Position numbers and translations under genes: made by a program | The notes under the pieces: generated by a model | Told to the model about the DNA's origin: nothing | The model's input: the letters and a program-made list of their open reading frames with translations, nothing else | The model's database searches: none | Shown here: positions 57,147 to 64,000 of the stretch, piece after piece | Position numbering within the stretch: the stretch's first letter is position 1 | How the letters are laid out: each line of letters begins with the position of its first letter | Source of the DNA: Solirubrobacterales bacterium | GTDB lineage: Bacteria; Actinomycetota; Thermoleophilia; Solirubrobacterales; Solirubrobacteraceae | Length of the DNA: 64,000 nt | Assembly: GCA_003244205.1 (NCBI GenBank) | Contig: QHBW01000093.1 | Span: forward strand, 1 to 64,000 | Direction of reading: 5' to 3'

Positions 57147-58100
57147 ATGAAGAGCGGCGCGGTGGTGGCCCTGTTCGGACCGACCGCCGTCGGCAAGACA
57201 GCGATCGCGGTCGCGCTCGCGCAGCGCTTGCGCGAGCGCGGTGAGTCGCCTGTGGCGATCTCCGCCGACGCCCTGCAGGTCTACGCTGGCTTGGAGCTGC
57301 TGACGGGCGCAGCGAGCCGCGCCGAGCGAGCCCGGCTGGAGCACCGGTTGGTCGGCTTCCTCCCGGTTGACGCGCGCTTCAGTGTGGCGGAGTACGCCGA
57401 GCTCGCACATGCGGAGATCGACAGCCTGCTCGAGCACGGCCAGCGCCCGCTGGTCGTGGGGGGGACCGGGCTGTACCTGCGCGCGGCGCTGAGCGAGCTC
57501 GACCTCCGCCCGCCCCCGCCCGACGGCGTCCGTGAGCGCTGGCAGGCCCAGCTCGCACGCTCGGGCGCCGGAGCCCTGCACAGCGAGCTCGCTCGGCGCG
57601 CTCCGTGGGCCGCCACGACGATCGATCCCAACGACCGTCGCCGCGTCGTGCGGGCGCTCGAACTGCTGGACTCCGGCCAGCTCGAGCCCCCGACTGGGCC
57701 ATCCCAGCTATGGACGGCAGATACCCGACATCCGACGCTGCTCGTGGCGCTGACGATGGATCGCGCGGCGCTCGGACAGCGCATTGATGCACGCGTCGAT
57801 GCGATCGTCGCCGCGGGTGCCGTCGAGGAGGTGCGCCGCGCCCACGCTGGCGGGGCTTCCGCCACCGCGCGCCAGGCACTCGGCTTTGCTGAGCTGCTCG
57901 CCGGTGACGTCGACGCCCTCAAGCGCCGGACACGCACCTTTGCGCGGCGCCAGGTCACCTGGATGCGCAAGCTCGCCGGCGCCCACGAGCTCGACGTCAC
58001 CCAGCGCATGCCCGAGCAGGCCGCGAGCGCCGTCGTTGGGCTGCTCGATCGCCTGGAGGACCGCGGGGGCAAGCCCGGGCAGCTCTCGCTGGATCCCTAG
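57147..58100 (+). CDS. miaA: tRNA dimethylallyltransferase
   Basis: 317 residues. Adds the dimethylallyl group to A37 of tRNAs reading UNN codons; its product is the substrate of MiaB upstream. P-loop ALFGPTAVGKTAIAVALA, SADALQVYAGL with catalytic Asp, PLVVGGTGLYLRAAL, and the C-terminal KRRTRTFARRQVTWMRK. ATG 57147 is the first start after the -10. dapF follows after 52 bp with its own hexamer. Confidence 0.95.
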   Translation: MKSGAVVALFGPTAVGKTAIAVALAQRLRERGESPVAISADALQVYAGLELLTGAASRAERARLEHRLVGFLPVDARFSVAEYAELAHAEIDSLLEHGQRPLVVGGTGLYLRAALSELDLRPPPPDGVRERWQAQLARSGAGALHSELARRAPWAATTIDPNDRRRVVRALELLDSGQLEPPTGPSQLWTADTRHPTLLVALTMDRAALGQRIDARVDAIVAAGAVEEVRRAHAGGASATARQALGFAELLAGDVDALKRRTRTFARRQVTWMRKLAGAHELDVTQRMPEQAASAVVGLLDRLEDRGGKPGQLSLDP

Positions 58101-58152: not shown

Positions 58153-59001
58153 GTGCGCTTTGAGAAGTGGCAGGCCCTTGGCAACGACTACGTGATCATC
58201 GAAGCGGCTGTCCTGCCGTTCGAGCTCACTGCAGGCCGCGTGCGCGGGCTCTGCGCCGAACACACCGGCGTAGGGGGAGACGGAGTCCTCCTGCTCTCTG
58301 GGCCCGACGACCCCGGTTGCGTGGCGCGGCTGCGGATCTTCAATCCCGACGGCTCTGAAGCCGAGTTGTCGGGCAATGGCGCACGCGAGGCGGTCCTCTA
58401 CCTGCGCCAGGCGGGTTGGACCGACGCCACAACCTTCTCGCTGCAGACCTCCGTTGGCGAGGTTCGCGCGACGATCCTCGACGAGCGTACGTGCAGGCTG
58501 GACATGGGCGCCGCCAAGCTGCGCTCGAGCGCCTACCCTGCCGGCCCGCCGCGGGGCGAGGGCGAACTCCAATCTGGGGGGCGCCGCTGGAGCTTCCAGC
58601 ACGTCTCGATCGGAAACCCGCAGTGCGCGATCTTCGTCGCTGAGGATGAGCTCGACCAGCTGCGACTAAGCGAGCTGGGACCCGAGATCGAGCGCCACGC
58701 GCTGTTCCCATCGCGCACGAACGTGTCGTTCTCGGCCGTGCTTGCGCCCGACAGCTTGCGCACGCGAATCTTCGAGCGTGGCGTGGGGGAGACGATGGCG
58801 TCGGGCACCGGAGCCTGTGGCGCCGCCGTCGCTCACGTCCTCCGAGGTGGCACGAGCCCAGTCAGCGTGAGGCTGGACGGGGGGGAGCTGCTCGTCGACG
58901 TGGGCGAGAACCTGCATGTCGATCTCACCGGGTGGGCGGTGCCGGTCTTCGCCGGCGAGCTCGCCAAACCGCTGATCGAGGAGCTGCATGCGACCGAGTA
59001 A
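58153..59001 (+). CDS. dapF: Diaminopimelate epimerase-like protein with both catalytic Cys replaced by Ser
   Basis: 282 residues with the full two-domain DapF fold: FEKWQALGNDYVIIE, the first active-site loop ELSGNGAREAV, HVSIGNPQCAIF, and the second loop GVGETMASGTGACGA. In DapF the two bases are Cys73 (CGNG) and Cys217 (CGTG). Here exactly residues 73 and 217 are Ser (codons TCG at 58369 and 58801). It should turn LL-DAP into meso-DAP, but Ser is a poor acid/base, so activity is uncertain. GTG start chosen by the FEKW start; it overlaps the aminotransferase gene by 14 bp. Confidence 0.87.
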   Translation: MRFEKWQALGNDYVIIEAAVLPFELTAGRVRGLCAEHTGVGGDGVLLLSGPDDPGCVARLRIFNPDGSEAELSGNGAREAVLYLRQAGWTDATTFSLQTSVGEVRATILDERTCRLDMGAAKLRSSAYPAGPPRGEGELQSGGRRWSFQHVSIGNPQCAIFVAEDELDQLRLSELGPEIERHALFPSRTNVSFSAVLAPDSLRTRIFERGVGETMASGTGACGAAVAHVLRGGTSPVSVRLDGGELLVDVGENLHVDLTGWAVPVFAGELAKPLIEELHATE

Positions 59002-60154
59002 GCGCCTGGAGCGAATCCCGCCGTACCTGTTCGCCGAGCTGGAGCGCAAGGTGGCGGCCAAGCGCGCCACCGGCGTGGACGTGATCTCGCTCGGCATCGG
59101 CGATCCAGACCGGCCGACTTACGAGCCGGTGGTGGCTGCGGCGCAGCGTGCCGTCGCCGACCCCGCGACCCATCGCTATCCGTCCAATCGCGGACGCGGC
59201 GAGTTTCGCCGCGCGGTAGCCGCCTTCTACGCGCGCCGTTTCGGCGTCGAGCTGGACTGCGATCACGAGATCATCCCGGCGATCGGCGCCAAGGAGTGCA
59301 TCTTCAACATGAACCTGGCCTTCCTCGACCCTGGCAATGTCGCCCTCGCCACCGATCCCGGCTATCCCGTCTACACCGCCGGACCACTGCTGGCCGGGGC
59401 CGAGCCGCATGGGATGGCGCTCGAGCCCGAGCGCGGCTTCATCCCGGACCTCGACGCCATTCCCGGCGACGCAAGGCAGCGAGCTCGGCTGATGTTCCTC
59501 AACTACCCCAACAACCCGACGGGTGCGGTCGTCCCCGACGGCTTCTTCGCGGACGTGATCGATTTCGCGCGCGCCAACGACATTCTCGTGGTGCACGACA
59601 ATGCCTACTCGGAGACCACCTACGACGGCTATCGCGCTCCGTCCTTTCTCGCCGAGGACGGGGCCCGCGATGTCGGCGTCGAGCTCTTCTCGCTCTCGAA
59701 GGGCTACAACATGACCGGCTGGCGCTGCGCCGCCCTCGTCGGCAACGCCGAGGCGATCGAGACTTACTGGCGCCTGAAGACGAACGTCGACTCCGGGCTC
59801 TTCGACGCCGTCCAACTCGCCGGGGCGGCGGCTTTGGCCCCCGAGGTCGATCTGCTCGTCGCTGCCCAGAACGCGATCTACGCACGCCGCCGCGACCTGG
59901 TCTGCGATGCCCTGCGGGCGGCGGGGGTGGACGTCACGCCCCCCCGCGGCACGATCTACGTGTGGGCGCCGATACCAGCCCGTTTCGCCACAGCCGCAGA
60001 GTACTGCGAGCACGTGCTCGAGCAGGCCGCTGTAGCGATCTCCCCGGGGGGAGCCTACGGTCCCAGCGGAGAGGGCTACTTCCGCATCTCGCTGACAACG
60101 CCCGACGATCGCCTGGTCGAAGCGGTCGAGCGGCTGCGCACGCTCGGCGGCTGA
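58988..60154 (+). CDS. dapL: LL-diaminopimelate aminotransferase-like enzyme
   Basis: 388 residues, fold-type I PLP aminotransferase. The start RLERIPPYLFAELERKVAAK with VDVISLGIGDPDRPT is typical of the DapL/class Ib group; PLP Lys in SLSKGYNMTGWR; NYPNNPTGAV and the C-terminal Arg in YFRISLTTPDDR. DapL converts tetrahydrodipicolinate to LL-DAP in one step, bypassing DapD, DapC and DapE. Overlap with dapF supports that role, but related enzymes use aspartate or alanine, so I give the symbol tentatively. Confidence 0.75.
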   Translation: MRPSKRLERIPPYLFAELERKVAAKRATGVDVISLGIGDPDRPTYEPVVAAAQRAVADPATHRYPSNRGRGEFRRAVAAFYARRFGVELDCDHEIIPAIGAKECIFNMNLAFLDPGNVALATDPGYPVYTAGPLLAGAEPHGMALEPERGFIPDLDAIPGDARQRARLMFLNYPNNPTGAVVPDGFFADVIDFARANDILVVHDNAYSETTYDGYRAPSFLAEDGARDVGVELFSLSKGYNMTGWRCAALVGNAEAIETYWRLKTNVDSGLFDAVQLAGAAALAPEVDLLVAAQNAIYARRRDLVCDALRAAGVDVTPPRGTIYVWAPIPARFATAAEYCEHVLEQAAVAISPGGAYGPSGEGYFRISLTTPDDRLVEAVERLRTLGG

Positions 60155-60201: not shown

Positions 60202-61602
60202 ATGCAGCGCAGCCGCCACGGACGTAGCGAGCAGTCACGCCTGGCTGCGGGCATCGATGGCGGCGGTCGCGCCGCCCAGCGCGCGCTGTGCGTCGCGGTG
60301 ACGACCTCCCGCGAGGACTTCGCCGAGCTCTCAGAGCTGCTGCGTACAGCCGGCGTCGCGGTTGCGGGCGAGCTTGTCCAGCAGCGCGAGCAACCCCACC
60401 CCAACAGCTACCTGGGTCGCGGCAAGCTGGAGGAGCTCAAGCTCGCGATCGATCGCCAGGATGCCAACCTGGTCGCCTGCGACGACGAGCTCACGCCCCG
60501 CCAGGAGCGCAATCTGGAGGCGGCGTTGGGTGTCCCCGTAATCGACCGCCCGGCGATCATCCTCGACATCTTCGCCAGCCACGCCAACTCGGCCGAGGGC
60601 AAGCTCCAAGTGGAGCTTGCCCAGCTCGAATACAACCTCGCGCGGATGCGCGGGTTGTGGACACATCTCGAGCGACTCGGCGGCGGGATCGGCACGCGCG
60701 GACCGGGGGAGACGCAGATCGAGACCGACCGCCGACTCGCCCGCGACCGCATCGCGGCGCTGCGCCGACGGCTGGCCCGCGTGCGTTCATCGCGCTCGAT
60801 CATGCGCCGCGAGCGCGAGCGCGCCGCGTTGCCCGAGATCGCGCTTGCCGGCTATACGAACGCCGGCAAGTCGACGCTGCTCAATGCTCTCACCGGGGCT
60901 GCGGTCGGTGTACGCGATCGCCTCTTTCACACGCTCGATCCGAGCACCCGCACGCTGATGCACGATGGGCGTACGTTCTTGCTCACGGACACAGTCGGAT
61001 TCATTCGCAAGCTTCCCCACCAGCTGGTGGACGCGTTCGCCGCCACGCTCGAGGAGACCAGGAGAGCGGACCTGCTCCTGCATGTGGCAGACGCCAGTGC
61101 CGACGCGGAGACGCTCGCAGAGATGCTGAGCGCAGTCGACGCGGTGCTCGACGAGATTGGGGCAGGCGAGCAGCCGCGGCTGCTGGTGCTCAACAAGGTG
61201 GACGCGATCGATGACGAGCGCCGCGAGGAGCTCGGCCTGCGTCACCCCGACGCGATCTTCGTCTCGGCGCTCAACGGTGAGGGCCTCGACCTCGTGCGCG
61301 CGCGGATCGCCACCGCCTTGCGCGACGGGTTGCGCAGCGTTGAGCTGCTCGTCCCCTACTCCGAGGGGGCCCGCGTGTCTGAGCTGCATGCGATCGACTC
61401 TGCTCTGCAGCGCCGTGACACTCCGGACGGGGTGCTCGTTCGCGCGCGGCTGCCCGCGCCCGCGCTCGAGCGTTACGCCTGCTTCCTCTCGGCTGGGCCA
61501 TCCAACGGAGCTCAGCGGCCGGAGGAGCCGAACCCGTCGGCGCCGCGGTCATCCGGCGACGGCAACAGCGCCTCGACCACCGTCGGCTCCAGCGGCCAGT
61601 AG
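60202..61602 (+). CDS. hflX: GTPase HflX
   Basis: 466 residues. Ribosome-splitting GTPase of the Obg-HflX family. N-terminal domain with NSYLGRGKLEELKLAI and IDRPAIILDIFASHANSAEG, Gly-rich linker GGIGTRGPGETQIETDRR, G-domain motifs GYTNAGKST, DTVGFIRKLPHQLV and NKVD. The last 35 residues or so (Pro/Ser-rich) are not conserved and are encoded antisense to the end of dut. Follows the usual miaA-dapF-hflX order. Confidence 0.94.
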   Translation: MQRSRHGRSEQSRLAAGIDGGGRAAQRALCVAVTTSREDFAELSELLRTAGVAVAGELVQQREQPHPNSYLGRGKLEELKLAIDRQDANLVACDDELTPRQERNLEAALGVPVIDRPAIILDIFASHANSAEGKLQVELAQLEYNLARMRGLWTHLERLGGGIGTRGPGETQIETDRRLARDRIAALRRRLARVRSSRSIMRRERERAALPEIALAGYTNAGKSTLLNALTGAAVGVRDRLFHTLDPSTRTLMHDGRTFLLTDTVGFIRKLPHQLVDAFAATLEETRRADLLLHVADASADAETLAEMLSAVDAVLDEIGAGEQPRLLVLNKVDAIDDERREELGLRHPDAIFVSALNGEGLDLVRARIATALRDGLRSVELLVPYSEGARVSELHAIDSALQRRDTPDGVLVRARLPAPALERYACFLSAGPSNGAQRPEEPNPSAPRSSGDGNSASTTVGSSGQ

Positions 61603-61978: not shown

Positions 61979-62728
61979 TCAGCGCTCCGCGATCCCAGCC
62001 GCGCGGCGCGCGGCGGCGTGGGCCGCATCCTCGAGCGCGTCATCCAGTGGCCCGAGCTCGGCTACGCCAGTATCGAGCGCCGCGGCGATCAGCCAATCGG
62101 CGAACCATGCGTTCTTTGGCAGCAGCGGTCCGTGCAGGTAGGTGCCGATGACTCCGCCCCGTCGCACTCCCTCGGCGGCGGATCTGCCGTCGTTGCCGTG
62201 TCCGCGCAGCACGCGCCCGAGAGGGTGCTCGTCTGCTCCCAGACGAGTGCGCCCAGCGTGGTTCTCAAAGCCGGCGAGCACGCGCTTGGGACCGTCGTCC
62301 AGGTCGACCTCGATCGCGACGTTGCCGATCAGCCGCGGCCCCTCGACCCGCACGGTCTCGAGATCGACGAGGCCGGCGCCTGGCAGCCAGGCATCCTCGA
62401 GCTGGTAGCCATGGCCGAGCAGCTGGTAACCGCCGCACACCCCGAGCACGAGGGCCCCTCGAGCAGCCGCAGCGTGGAGCGCCGGAGCCTTGTGCTCGAC
62501 AAGGTCCGCGGCGCACAAGCGCTGGTCGGCGTCCTGACCGCCGCCGATGTAATAGAGGTCGTGGGCATCGGCATCGAGTCGGTCTCCGAGGGTGGCGTTG
62601 GCAAGCTCGAAACCGATCCCGCGCCAGCGGCAGCGACGCTCCAGCAGCAGCAGGTTGCCGCGATCCGCGTAGATGTTCATCAGCTCGCCATAGAGCGCAC
62701 AGACGCGCAGCGTGGGGTTTTCAGCCAT
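61979..62728 (-). CDS. gatD: Lipid II isoglutaminyl synthase, glutaminase subunit
   Basis: 249 residues, class I glutaminase-like amidotransferase of the GatD/CobQ group. Catalytic Cys in LVLGVCGGYQLLGHGYQ and His in GVIGTYLHGPLLPKN; N-terminal ALYGELMNIYADRGNLLLLE is diagnostic for GatD. It hydrolyses glutamine and gives ammonia to MurT, which amidates the D-Glu of lipid II. ATG 62728, 8 bp inside the methyltransferase gene. Confidence 0.92.
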   Translation of the reverse strand: MAENPTLRVCALYGELMNIYADRGNLLLLERRCRWRGIGFELANATLGDRLDADAHDLYYIGGGQDADQRLCAADLVEHKAPALHAAAARGALVLGVCGGYQLLGHGYQLEDAWLPGAGLVDLETVRVEGPRLIGNVAIEVDLDDGPKRVLAGFENHAGRTRLGADEHPLGRVLRGHGNDGRSAAEGVRRGGVIGTYLHGPLLPKNAWFADWLIAAALDTGVAELGPLDDALEDAAHAAARRAAGIAER

Positions 62729-63476
62729 GCCACATAACGACCGTCGAGGAGACGTGCTCGCTCGTCGATGCGATCTCGCGGTGGGCAAGCCCGCGCAGAC
62801 CCGCGCGCTCGCCCTCGGCGCGGAGATCGTCGGGCTTCACGCGGTCGAGCGCGACGGCGTCGAGCTCCTCGTATGCGCCACCGCTGGGCGTGAGCGCGCG
62901 ACGCCGACGCTCGAGCTCAATCGCATGCACCGAAATGCGGATGGCCGTCGGCTGGCTCTCGAAGACGGTGCCGTGGCGCTCGTGCACGTCCGCAGGTGGG
63001 AGCGCTCCGCCGTCCGCGGCAGCGAAGCCCGGCAGCTCGTCCACGATCGCGGTCGCAAGTACTCCGCCCGCGCTCAGGTGGCGACGAGCGCAGCGCAGGA
63101 AGCGGCGGCGACCGCCCGGTCCACCCAGCAGTTGGACGGTCTGCATCGGCACGACGATCAGCGCGAAGCGGCGCTGCAAGTGGAAGTCGCGCGCGTCGGC
63201 GAGCACCGGCGACACTGCTGGGTGTCGCGAGGCCAGCTCTGCCAGGAGCACCGGATCGATCTCGAGCGCGACGACGTCGTGGCGCGCTGCGGCCAAACAC
63301 CCGCTGACGCGACCGGTTCCGGCGCCGATCTCCAGCACGGGCCCCTCCGTGGCAGCCGCGAGCCCCAGCCAGAGGTCGAGATCGGCGTCATAGCGGCCGC
63401 ACTCGAGCTCGTGCCAGGTCACGGCCTCGGAGGGAGCGCTGTGATCGGAGGTAGTCAGCCACGTGCTCCTGCTCAT
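62721..63476 (-). CDS. Class I SAM-dependent methyltransferase
   Basis: 251 residues. Motif I VLEIGAGTGRVSGCLA, motif II-like acidic VALEIDPVLL, and the region DARDFHLQRRFALIVVPMQT are clear; substrate unknown. It lies between murT and gatD with overlaps on both sides (4 and 8 bp), so it is co-translated with the lipid II amidation genes. A cell-wall precursor or lipid is a possible substrate, by context only. Confidence 0.85.
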   Translation of the reverse strand: MSRSTWLTTSDHSAPSEAVTWHELECGRYDADLDLWLGLAAATEGPVLEIGAGTGRVSGCLAAARHDVVALEIDPVLLAELASRHPAVSPVLADARDFHLQRRFALIVVPMQTVQLLGGPGGRRRFLRCARRHLSAGGVLATAIVDELPGFAAADGGALPPADVHERHGTVFESQPTAIRISVHAIELERRRRALTPSGGAYEELDAVALDRVKPDDLRAEGERAGLRGLAHREIASTSEHVSSTVVMWHG

Positions 63477-64000
63477 CGCCAGAACCTCGCGGCGACGCCT
63501 CTGTCGGCGAGCAGTCCGCGCAGCTGCAGCAGAGCGGTGTAGGTCGGTAGCGCATAGAGCGTCCCATTCCCCGCAGCGCGGGCGCTGTCGAAGGCGTCAG
63601 GCAGATCGCCGACGATCGCGATCTTCTCCGGGGCTACGCCCGCGTACTTGAGGCGTACGCCCAGCTCGTCGGCGCGCGTCCCCGAGCAGGTCACACCCCT
63701 TAGACGACTAGCGAGCAGCTCGAAATCTGCGTCCCAGATCCAGGACACGTCGCGCCCGTCCGCGATGCCGTCGTTGAGTACGCCCAGCACGTCGTGCTGT
63801 CCAGGCTCGAGCACAAGCGTGCGCAACACCTCGTTGGCCCCGGCGGGATTCTTGATTAGCATGATCGAGAGAGCGCGACCGTCCACCGCGATCGTCTCGG
63901 CACGCCCGAATGCGGCCTCCGCATCCTGCAGCCCGGCAACCACGTCGCCCAACGCGACCCCGAGCGACAGGCACAACGCGGCGGCGCCCAGCGCGTTGTA
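63473..64000 (-). CDS. murT: Lipid II isoglutaminyl synthase, MurT subunit (5' part outside window)
   Basis: The last 175 residues of a Mur-ligase-like protein, running off the window edge. The end of the Mur ligase middle domain (NALGAAALCLSLGVALGDVV) and the C-terminal DUF1727 domain (IKNPAGANEVLRTL, GRDVSWIWDADFELL) are typical of MurT. ATP-dependent amidation of lipid II with GatD. ATGA overlap with the methyltransferase gene. Confidence 0.9.
   Translation of the reverse strand, partial: YNALGAAALCLSLGVALGDVVAGLQDAEAAFGRAETIAVDGRALSIMLIKNPAGANEVLRTLVLEPGQHDVLGVLNDGIADGRDVSWIWDADFELLASRLRGVTCSGTRADELGVRLKYAGVAPEKIAIVGDLPDAFDSARAAGNGTLYALPTYTALLQLRGLLADRGVAARFWR

Follow-up and report, generated by a model that had tools for sequence, protein, structure and literature searches.

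A diaminopimelate epimerase homologue with serine at both catalytic cysteine positions in a Solirubrobacterales bacterium

Results

The dapF gene and its catalytic sites

The window analysed here is a whole stretch of 64,000 nucleotides from a Solirubrobacterales bacterium (assembly GCA_003244205.1, contig QHBW01000093.1), whose genome (G000) of 2.66 Mb in 100 contigs is 92.9% complete. It was found to contain a dapF gene for a homologue of diaminopimelate (DAP) epimerase with serine in place of both catalytic cysteines, a state written below as Ser/Ser (residue 73 followed by residue 217; other forms likewise). The gene starts with GTG at 58153, stops at 59001 on the plus strand and encodes 282 amino acids. 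The following features were located.

58153 to 59001, plus strand: dapF, Ser/Ser diaminopimelate epimerase homologue; TIGR00652, PF01678, the AlphaFold2 model and the PDB fold matches all indicate DapF
58369 to 58371, plus strand: codon tcg, Ser73 replacing the first catalytic Cys, at the N-terminal end of predicted helix 74-86 (aligned with E. coli C73)
58621 to 58623, plus strand: codon cag, Gln157 replacing E. coli His159
58768 to 58770, plus strand: codon atc, Ile206, two residues before Glu208 (Val, Thr or Ser in Cys217 enzymes)
58801 to 58803, plus strand: codon tcg, Ser217 replacing the second catalytic Cys, at the N-terminal end of predicted helix 218-230 (aligned with E. coli C217)

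The TIGR00652 equivalog profile, with a cut-off of 114.65 bits, matched residues 1-271 at 191.1 bits and thus across the full length, and PF01678 (134.6 bits, two repeats) was the sole Pfam match. Ser73 was found in loop 1, NPDGSEAELSGNGAR, and Ser217 in loop 2, ERGVGETMASGTGAC, and both aligned with the catalytic Cys73 and Cys217 of E. coli DapF, which bears out the initial annotation in placing serine at exactly these residues. Since the catalytic cysteine pair is absent, the protein was classed as a Ser/Ser variant of DapF and not as a standard member. The initial annotation had described all other DapF blocks as intact and thereby missed a further change: Glu208 is kept, but His159 (E. coli numbering) is replaced by Gln, giving GNPQ for GNPH. 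His159 and Glu208 are thought to tune the pKa of the catalytic cysteines.

The AlphaFold2 model of the protein was found to have the DapF fold with two like domains (predicted local distance difference test score 96.4, predicted template modelling score 0.92), and the top Foldseek matches in the PDB were DapF structures with template modelling (TM) scores of 0.84-0.88. The predicted helices begin at residues 74 and 218, which would place both serines at helix N-terminal ends, as the cysteines are.

Conserved and covarying residues

Sites 73 and 217 were occupied by Ser or Cys only, and never by Ala, Gly or Thr, in 234 aligned DapFs, part of which had been chosen for Ser73; judged from the alignment, this is not the look of a decaying active site. 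Residues N11, N64, G74, N75, R78, N157, N190, E208, R209, G210, G218 and T/S219 were found to be equally conserved in Ser/Ser and Cys/Cys forms, and the window DapF contained the DAP-contact residues N11, N64, N157, N190, E208 and R209 together with the GN and GT backbone loops. Alignment position 159 contained His in 51/51 Cys/Cys rows, where it is invariant, and Gln in 66/161 Ser/Ser rows; this Gln was found in the window's order and in part of the Acidobacteriota, His159 being kept in most other Ser/Ser rows.

Residue 206 was Ile, Phe or Leu in 160/189 Ser/Ser and 8/8 Cys/Ser rows, in 1/28 Ser/Cys rows and in 0/87 Cys/Cys rows, all 87 of the last containing Val, Thr or Ser. The size of residue 206 in these rows tracks Ser217 and not Ser73, and a bulky residue there plausibly reflects repacking behind Ser217.

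A relocated cysteine acting as the base was rejected, since no Cys column was specific to Ser/Ser rows and Cys34 was equally common in Cys/Cys rows. Three Ser/Ser DapFs (L060 of genome G068, L103 and L153) contained no Cys at all, which rules out a displaced thiol as the explanation of catalysis in them. These three are 224-233 amino acids long, being shorter in the region of residues 36 to 44 while retaining the DapF motifs, and the genome of one of them was found to contain a single DapF, LysA and no DAP dehydrogenase over the cut-off.

Distribution of the serine forms

A dapF orthologue was found in 60/60 relatives searched. The first 30 fetched, from the same family and order, all contained SGNG/SGTG, and sequencing error was rejected on their agreement and that of further rows of the order. 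All 37 aligned orthologues from the order were Ser/Ser, some of them from one-contig genomes, and the DapF of Patulibacter americanus DSM 16676 contained the same residues. Ser alone occupies the two sites throughout the order, and both TCN and AGY codons encode it, so that chance can be set aside. The window dapF grouped with named Solirubrobacterales, Conexibacter and Patulibacter records, which supports the placing of the window in Solirubrobacterales. To the initial annotation's query whether Ser/Ser is lineage-wide among Thermoleophilia relatives, the answer is that the whole order is Ser/Ser while five other families of the class (f5, f6, f8, f9 and f10) are Cys/Cys; a further one (f7), which clusters with a record from the Gaiellaceae, is Ser/Ser and retains His159.

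A Ser73-pattern scan over 84,980 species genomes, which selects for Ser73, gave at least 120 loci. Among the 120 matches listed, 97 were Ser/Ser and 11 Ser/Cys on the simple motif, the remainder being incomplete or unparsed; these two forms were spread over Acidobacteriota, Nitrospira, Opitutae, Rokubacteria, Aminicenantes, Latescibacteria, Zixibacteria, Myxococcota and Thermoleophilia. Samples drawn without selection for Ser73 contained 43 Ser/Ser, 23 Cys/Cys and 4 Cys/Ser forms in Acidobacteriota (n=70), and 48 Cys/Cys, 9 Ser/Cys, 6 Ser/Ser and 4 Cys/Ser forms in Actinomycetota (67 loci, which include a few second copies from the same genome). The best-scoring 30 from Nitrospirota contained 28 Cys/Cys and 2 Ser/Ser forms. 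What had been treated at the outset as a peculiarity of one gene is thus lineage-wide and recurrent across several phyla.

The natural Cys/Ser DapFs (L302, L305, L306, L310, L265, L267, L287 and L207) were all found to contain Ile or Phe at residue 206. Two Actinomycetota families, f24 and f38 (L327-L330; genomes G191, G218, G240 and G250), contained two DapFs per genome, one Cys/Cys and the other a Ser/Ser paralogue with an altered loop (NPDASEA..SGNG, ASAAG). A record titled Bifidobacterium breve (L096) contained a Ser/Cys DapF grouping with Acidimicrobiia and is probably a mislabelled or contaminated metagenome-assembled genome (MAG). Divergent DapF-like proteins with a CSNGSR loop, below the cut-off, were found in some Acidobacteriota (L331-L333), in G536 in addition to the main DapF, and in G498 and G511 as the only match.

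Repeated origin of the Ser/Ser form

A tree of 165 rows was built with columns 72, 73, 159, 206 and 217 left out; being unrooted and made by a quick method, it does not give the direction of change, and exact numbers of changes are uncertain. The Ser/Ser label required 9 changes on it, and starred (well-supported) branches force at least 5 of these, by which one ancient Ser/Ser subfamily was rejected; the changes numbered 11 at site 73 and 13 at site 217. A starred branch united the Ser/Ser Gaiellaceae with the Cys/Cys family f5. The window's order fell among other Cys/Cys families of its class, its exact place being less well supported.

Need for meso-DAP and alternative sources

The second canonical dapF with cysteine motifs, for which the initial annotation had suggested a search, was not found in the 92.9% complete window genome, which contained a single PF01678 gene, and one full-length-type DapF was found in each of the 34 Ser/Ser genomes examined; a missed canonical copy was rejected on these counts. 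DAP dehydrogenase was over the cut-off in 0/41 relatives by profile search and in 1/34 Ser/Ser genomes, an atypical MAG, and a bypass through this enzyme was therefore rejected for the order. A Pseudomonadaceae MAG (genome G463) contained a Ser/Ser DapF fragment (L129) that grouped with E. coli DapF, beside a full DAP dehydrogenase; the gene may be relaxed or the assembly mixed.

LysA, which decarboxylates meso-DAP, was over the cut-off in 9/9 Thermoleophilia Ser/Ser genomes, and MurE, a user of meso-DAP, in 14/14 genomes tested. The DNPR motif, which we take to be the mark of a DAP-adding MurE, was found in 13/14; the window genome was included in both the LysA and the DNPR counts. The wall residue at position 3 is given as meso-DAP for all Solirubrobacterales in the Conexibacter woesei genome paper (PMC3035278), and hydrolysis of a Solirubrobacter species yielded meso-DAP (PMC10722151). 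This published chemotaxonomy contradicts, for the order, a wall built on LL-DAP, which the initial annotation had offered as one option.

Gene neighbourhood

The neighbours of dapF on the same strand were found to be as follows.

57147 to 58100, plus strand: miaA, tRNA dimethylallyltransferase, upstream of dapF (PF01715, 191.4 bits); a conserved dapF neighbour in Cys/Cys and Ser/Ser lineages
58988 to 60154, plus strand: dapL, LL-diaminopimelate aminotransferase (NF006756, 520.7 bits, cut-off 507); conserved downstream neighbour
60202 to 61602, plus strand: hflX GTPase, further neighbour of the miaA-dapF-dapL cluster (TIGR03156, 434.9 bits, cut-off 216.75); conserved order

The gene dapL starts 14 nucleotides inside dapF in the +1 frame, and not in frame with it as first annotated. 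The order miaA-dapF-dapL was common to Cys/Cys and Ser/Ser lineages; as dapL adjoins Cys/Cys dapF too, a tie between Ser/Ser and the DapL pathway was rejected. Two genes like those for lipid II isoglutaminyl synthase were also found near dapF-dapL on the minus strand, both below the curated cut-off: a GatD-like gene at 61979-62788 (158.9 bits) and a partial MurT-like gene at 63473-64000 (114.4 bits).

Discussion

Proposed mechanism

The window dapF is, at a probability of about 0.62, the LL-DAP epimerase of the cell, with Ser instead of Cys as its two acid/base residues. Fold and substrate pocket, together with the gene order and the pathway context, mark the protein as DapF in ancestry and most likely in function, and from them we infer catalysis as well. 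The slow or differently wired epimerase named by the initial annotation is the best supported of its options, with the contact residues kept, a single DapF, no DAP dehydrogenase, LysA and MurE present, and meso-DAP walls in the order.

In the proposed mechanism, LL-DAP from DapL, the product of the adjoining gene, would bind in the usual closed cleft of DapF. One serine, deprotonated with the aid of the helix dipole, the backbone NH groups and Glu208, would take the alpha proton, and the other would donate a proton to the opposite face, giving a two-base inversion. The larger residue 206 would plausibly repack the space behind Ser217, and turnover may be slow while being enough for wall and lysine needs. 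CgDapF is inactivated by a disulfide between its two catalytic cysteines (PMC5296763). Losing the thiol pair would remove such inactivation, although as a selective reason this is only a guess. The wider proposal, for which the odds are about even, is that a switch of the acid/base group from thiol to hydroxyl has occurred repeatedly in DapF, via Ser/Cys and Cys/Ser states and with repacking at residue 206, giving widespread Cys-free, redox-insensitive two-base epimerases.

Several points weigh against catalysis by the serine pair. Serine, with a pKa of about 16, is a poor base, and the window DapF is without His159 as well. For the link between residues 206 and 217, starred branches provided 6 independent pairs, of which 3.4 agreed in direction and 0.0 were opposed, too few for significance. 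E. coli dapF mutants are viable. They also accumulate LL-DAP, as stated in a later paper that cites Richaud 1987 (PMC6254735), and a weak or inactive DapF can therefore be tolerated. The Cys-to-Ser change leaves less than 0.1% activity in PddB, with M. tuberculosis DapF reported alike (PMC8225329), and strongly lowers turnover in HisR (PMC11602996). As such laboratory mutants are crippled, natural Ser/Ser enzymes must be compensated, or slow but sufficient. The open-licence literature was found to contain no enzyme assay of any Ser/Ser DapF and no report of a natural one, which does not prove that none exists.

Alternative explanations

The crippling of characterised members by Cys-to-Ser changes would also fit a Ser/Ser protein that is dead or nearly so, kept for a scaffold role, as a DapL partner or as a regulator of the RppH type, and a different enzyme may then make meso-DAP rather than DapF. 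Non-catalytic roles do exist, E. coli DapF also binding RppH (PMC4227774), and an unrelated racemase may escape sequence searches. This explanation is nevertheless unlikely, since invariance extends to active-site residues for which no non-catalytic role is obvious, a repeated origin in several phyla would demand the same replacement enzyme every time, and neither a second DapF nor, with a single exception, a DAP dehydrogenase accompanies the protein in the 34 Ser/Ser genomes. An assembly or sequencing error, or a canonical second dapF missed in an incomplete genome, could be thought of in a 100-contig assembly, but is extremely improbable, as the one-contig genomes of the order and P. americanus DSM 16676 contain the same residues and likewise a single DapF.

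The protein may also carry out a different reaction on DAP, such as an irreversible one-way inversion, with water, Glu208 or Gln157 as the true base and Ser positioning it. Glu/Asp catalysis occurs in the PhzF branch of the fold, Glu208 is invariant, Ser is a weak base, and the window's order and part of the Acidobacteriota have Gln for His159. Against this stand the retention of His159 in most Ser/Ser rows outside those groups, which leaves no common replacement residue, and the restriction of both sites to Ser or Cys, which suggests that a hydrogen-bearing side chain matters; we regard it as rather improbable. An epimerase or racemase for another substrate is very unlikely. The DapF fold has switched substrate before, in HisR, CntK, PddB and O-ureidoserine racemase, but the window protein retains the DAP-contact residues, its gene is still flanked by miaA and dapL, and no other DapF accompanies it in a genome that encodes LysA and MurE, so the corresponding option of the initial annotation found no support.

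Significance

DapF is the standard example of a Cys thiolate taking an amino-acid proton of pKa about 29, and inhibitor design has largely been aimed at its catalytic cysteines, with aziridino-DAP, iodoacetamide and further thiol reagents. If the two serines do act as proposed, the cysteine pair would not be required for cofactor-independent abstraction of the alpha proton in the DapF family, and resistance to oxidative inactivation and to thiol-directed DapF inhibitors would be expected of Ser/Ser organisms. The mechanism is not as the textbook requires if two serines do this work in a whole actinobacterial order and in most of the Acidobacteriota sampled. If Ser/Ser proteins are instead inactive, these phyla must hold an undiscovered route to meso-DAP, which would be equally important. 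Ordinary enzyme kinetics can test the proposal, since nature supplies Ser/Cys, Cys/Ser and Ser/Ser DapFs as well as closely related Cys/Cys enzymes from the same class.

Comparison with known systems

Natural catalytic serines were found to be described in the proline racemase superfamily, in the Ser/Cys 4-hydroxyproline 2-epimerase (B9JQV3) and the Ser/Thr trans-3-hydroxyproline dehydratase (B9K4G4) (PMC4113996). The overall fold class is shared, and in these enzymes too a natural Ser stands in for the first catalytic Cys and is regarded as catalytic. The substrates are other ones, the second residue is Cys or Thr, PDB fold matches have 11-18% identity, and the likeness of the window DapF to the superfamily is one of fold only, its sole Pfam match being PF01678. 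No Ser/Ser epimerase of that superfamily was found reported in the open-licence literature.

HisR, CntK, O-ureidoserine racemase and PddB share the DapF-like fold and cofactor-independent inversion. They keep both cysteines and have a changed substrate, whereas the window DapF is the opposite, its contact residues being kept and its cysteines lost; a PDB sequence search with it ranked DapF chains over O-ureidoserine racemase. The H. influenzae DapF mutants C73S and C217S (PDB 2q9h and 2q9j) contain the same substitutions singly and were among the fold matches (TM 0.85 and 0.84, respectively). They are laboratory single mutants of a Cys/Cys enzyme, whereas the window DapF has both changes together with those at 159 and 206, fixed by evolution.

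Standard DapF (TIGR00652, PF01678, EC 5.1.1.7) and the window DapF have in common the fold, the length, the two repeats, the contact residues, Glu208-Arg209, the helix starts behind residues 73 and 217 and the gene place miaA-dapF-dapL. They differ in that the window DapF contains Ser for both catalytic Cys, Gln for His159 and Ile for Val/Thr206.
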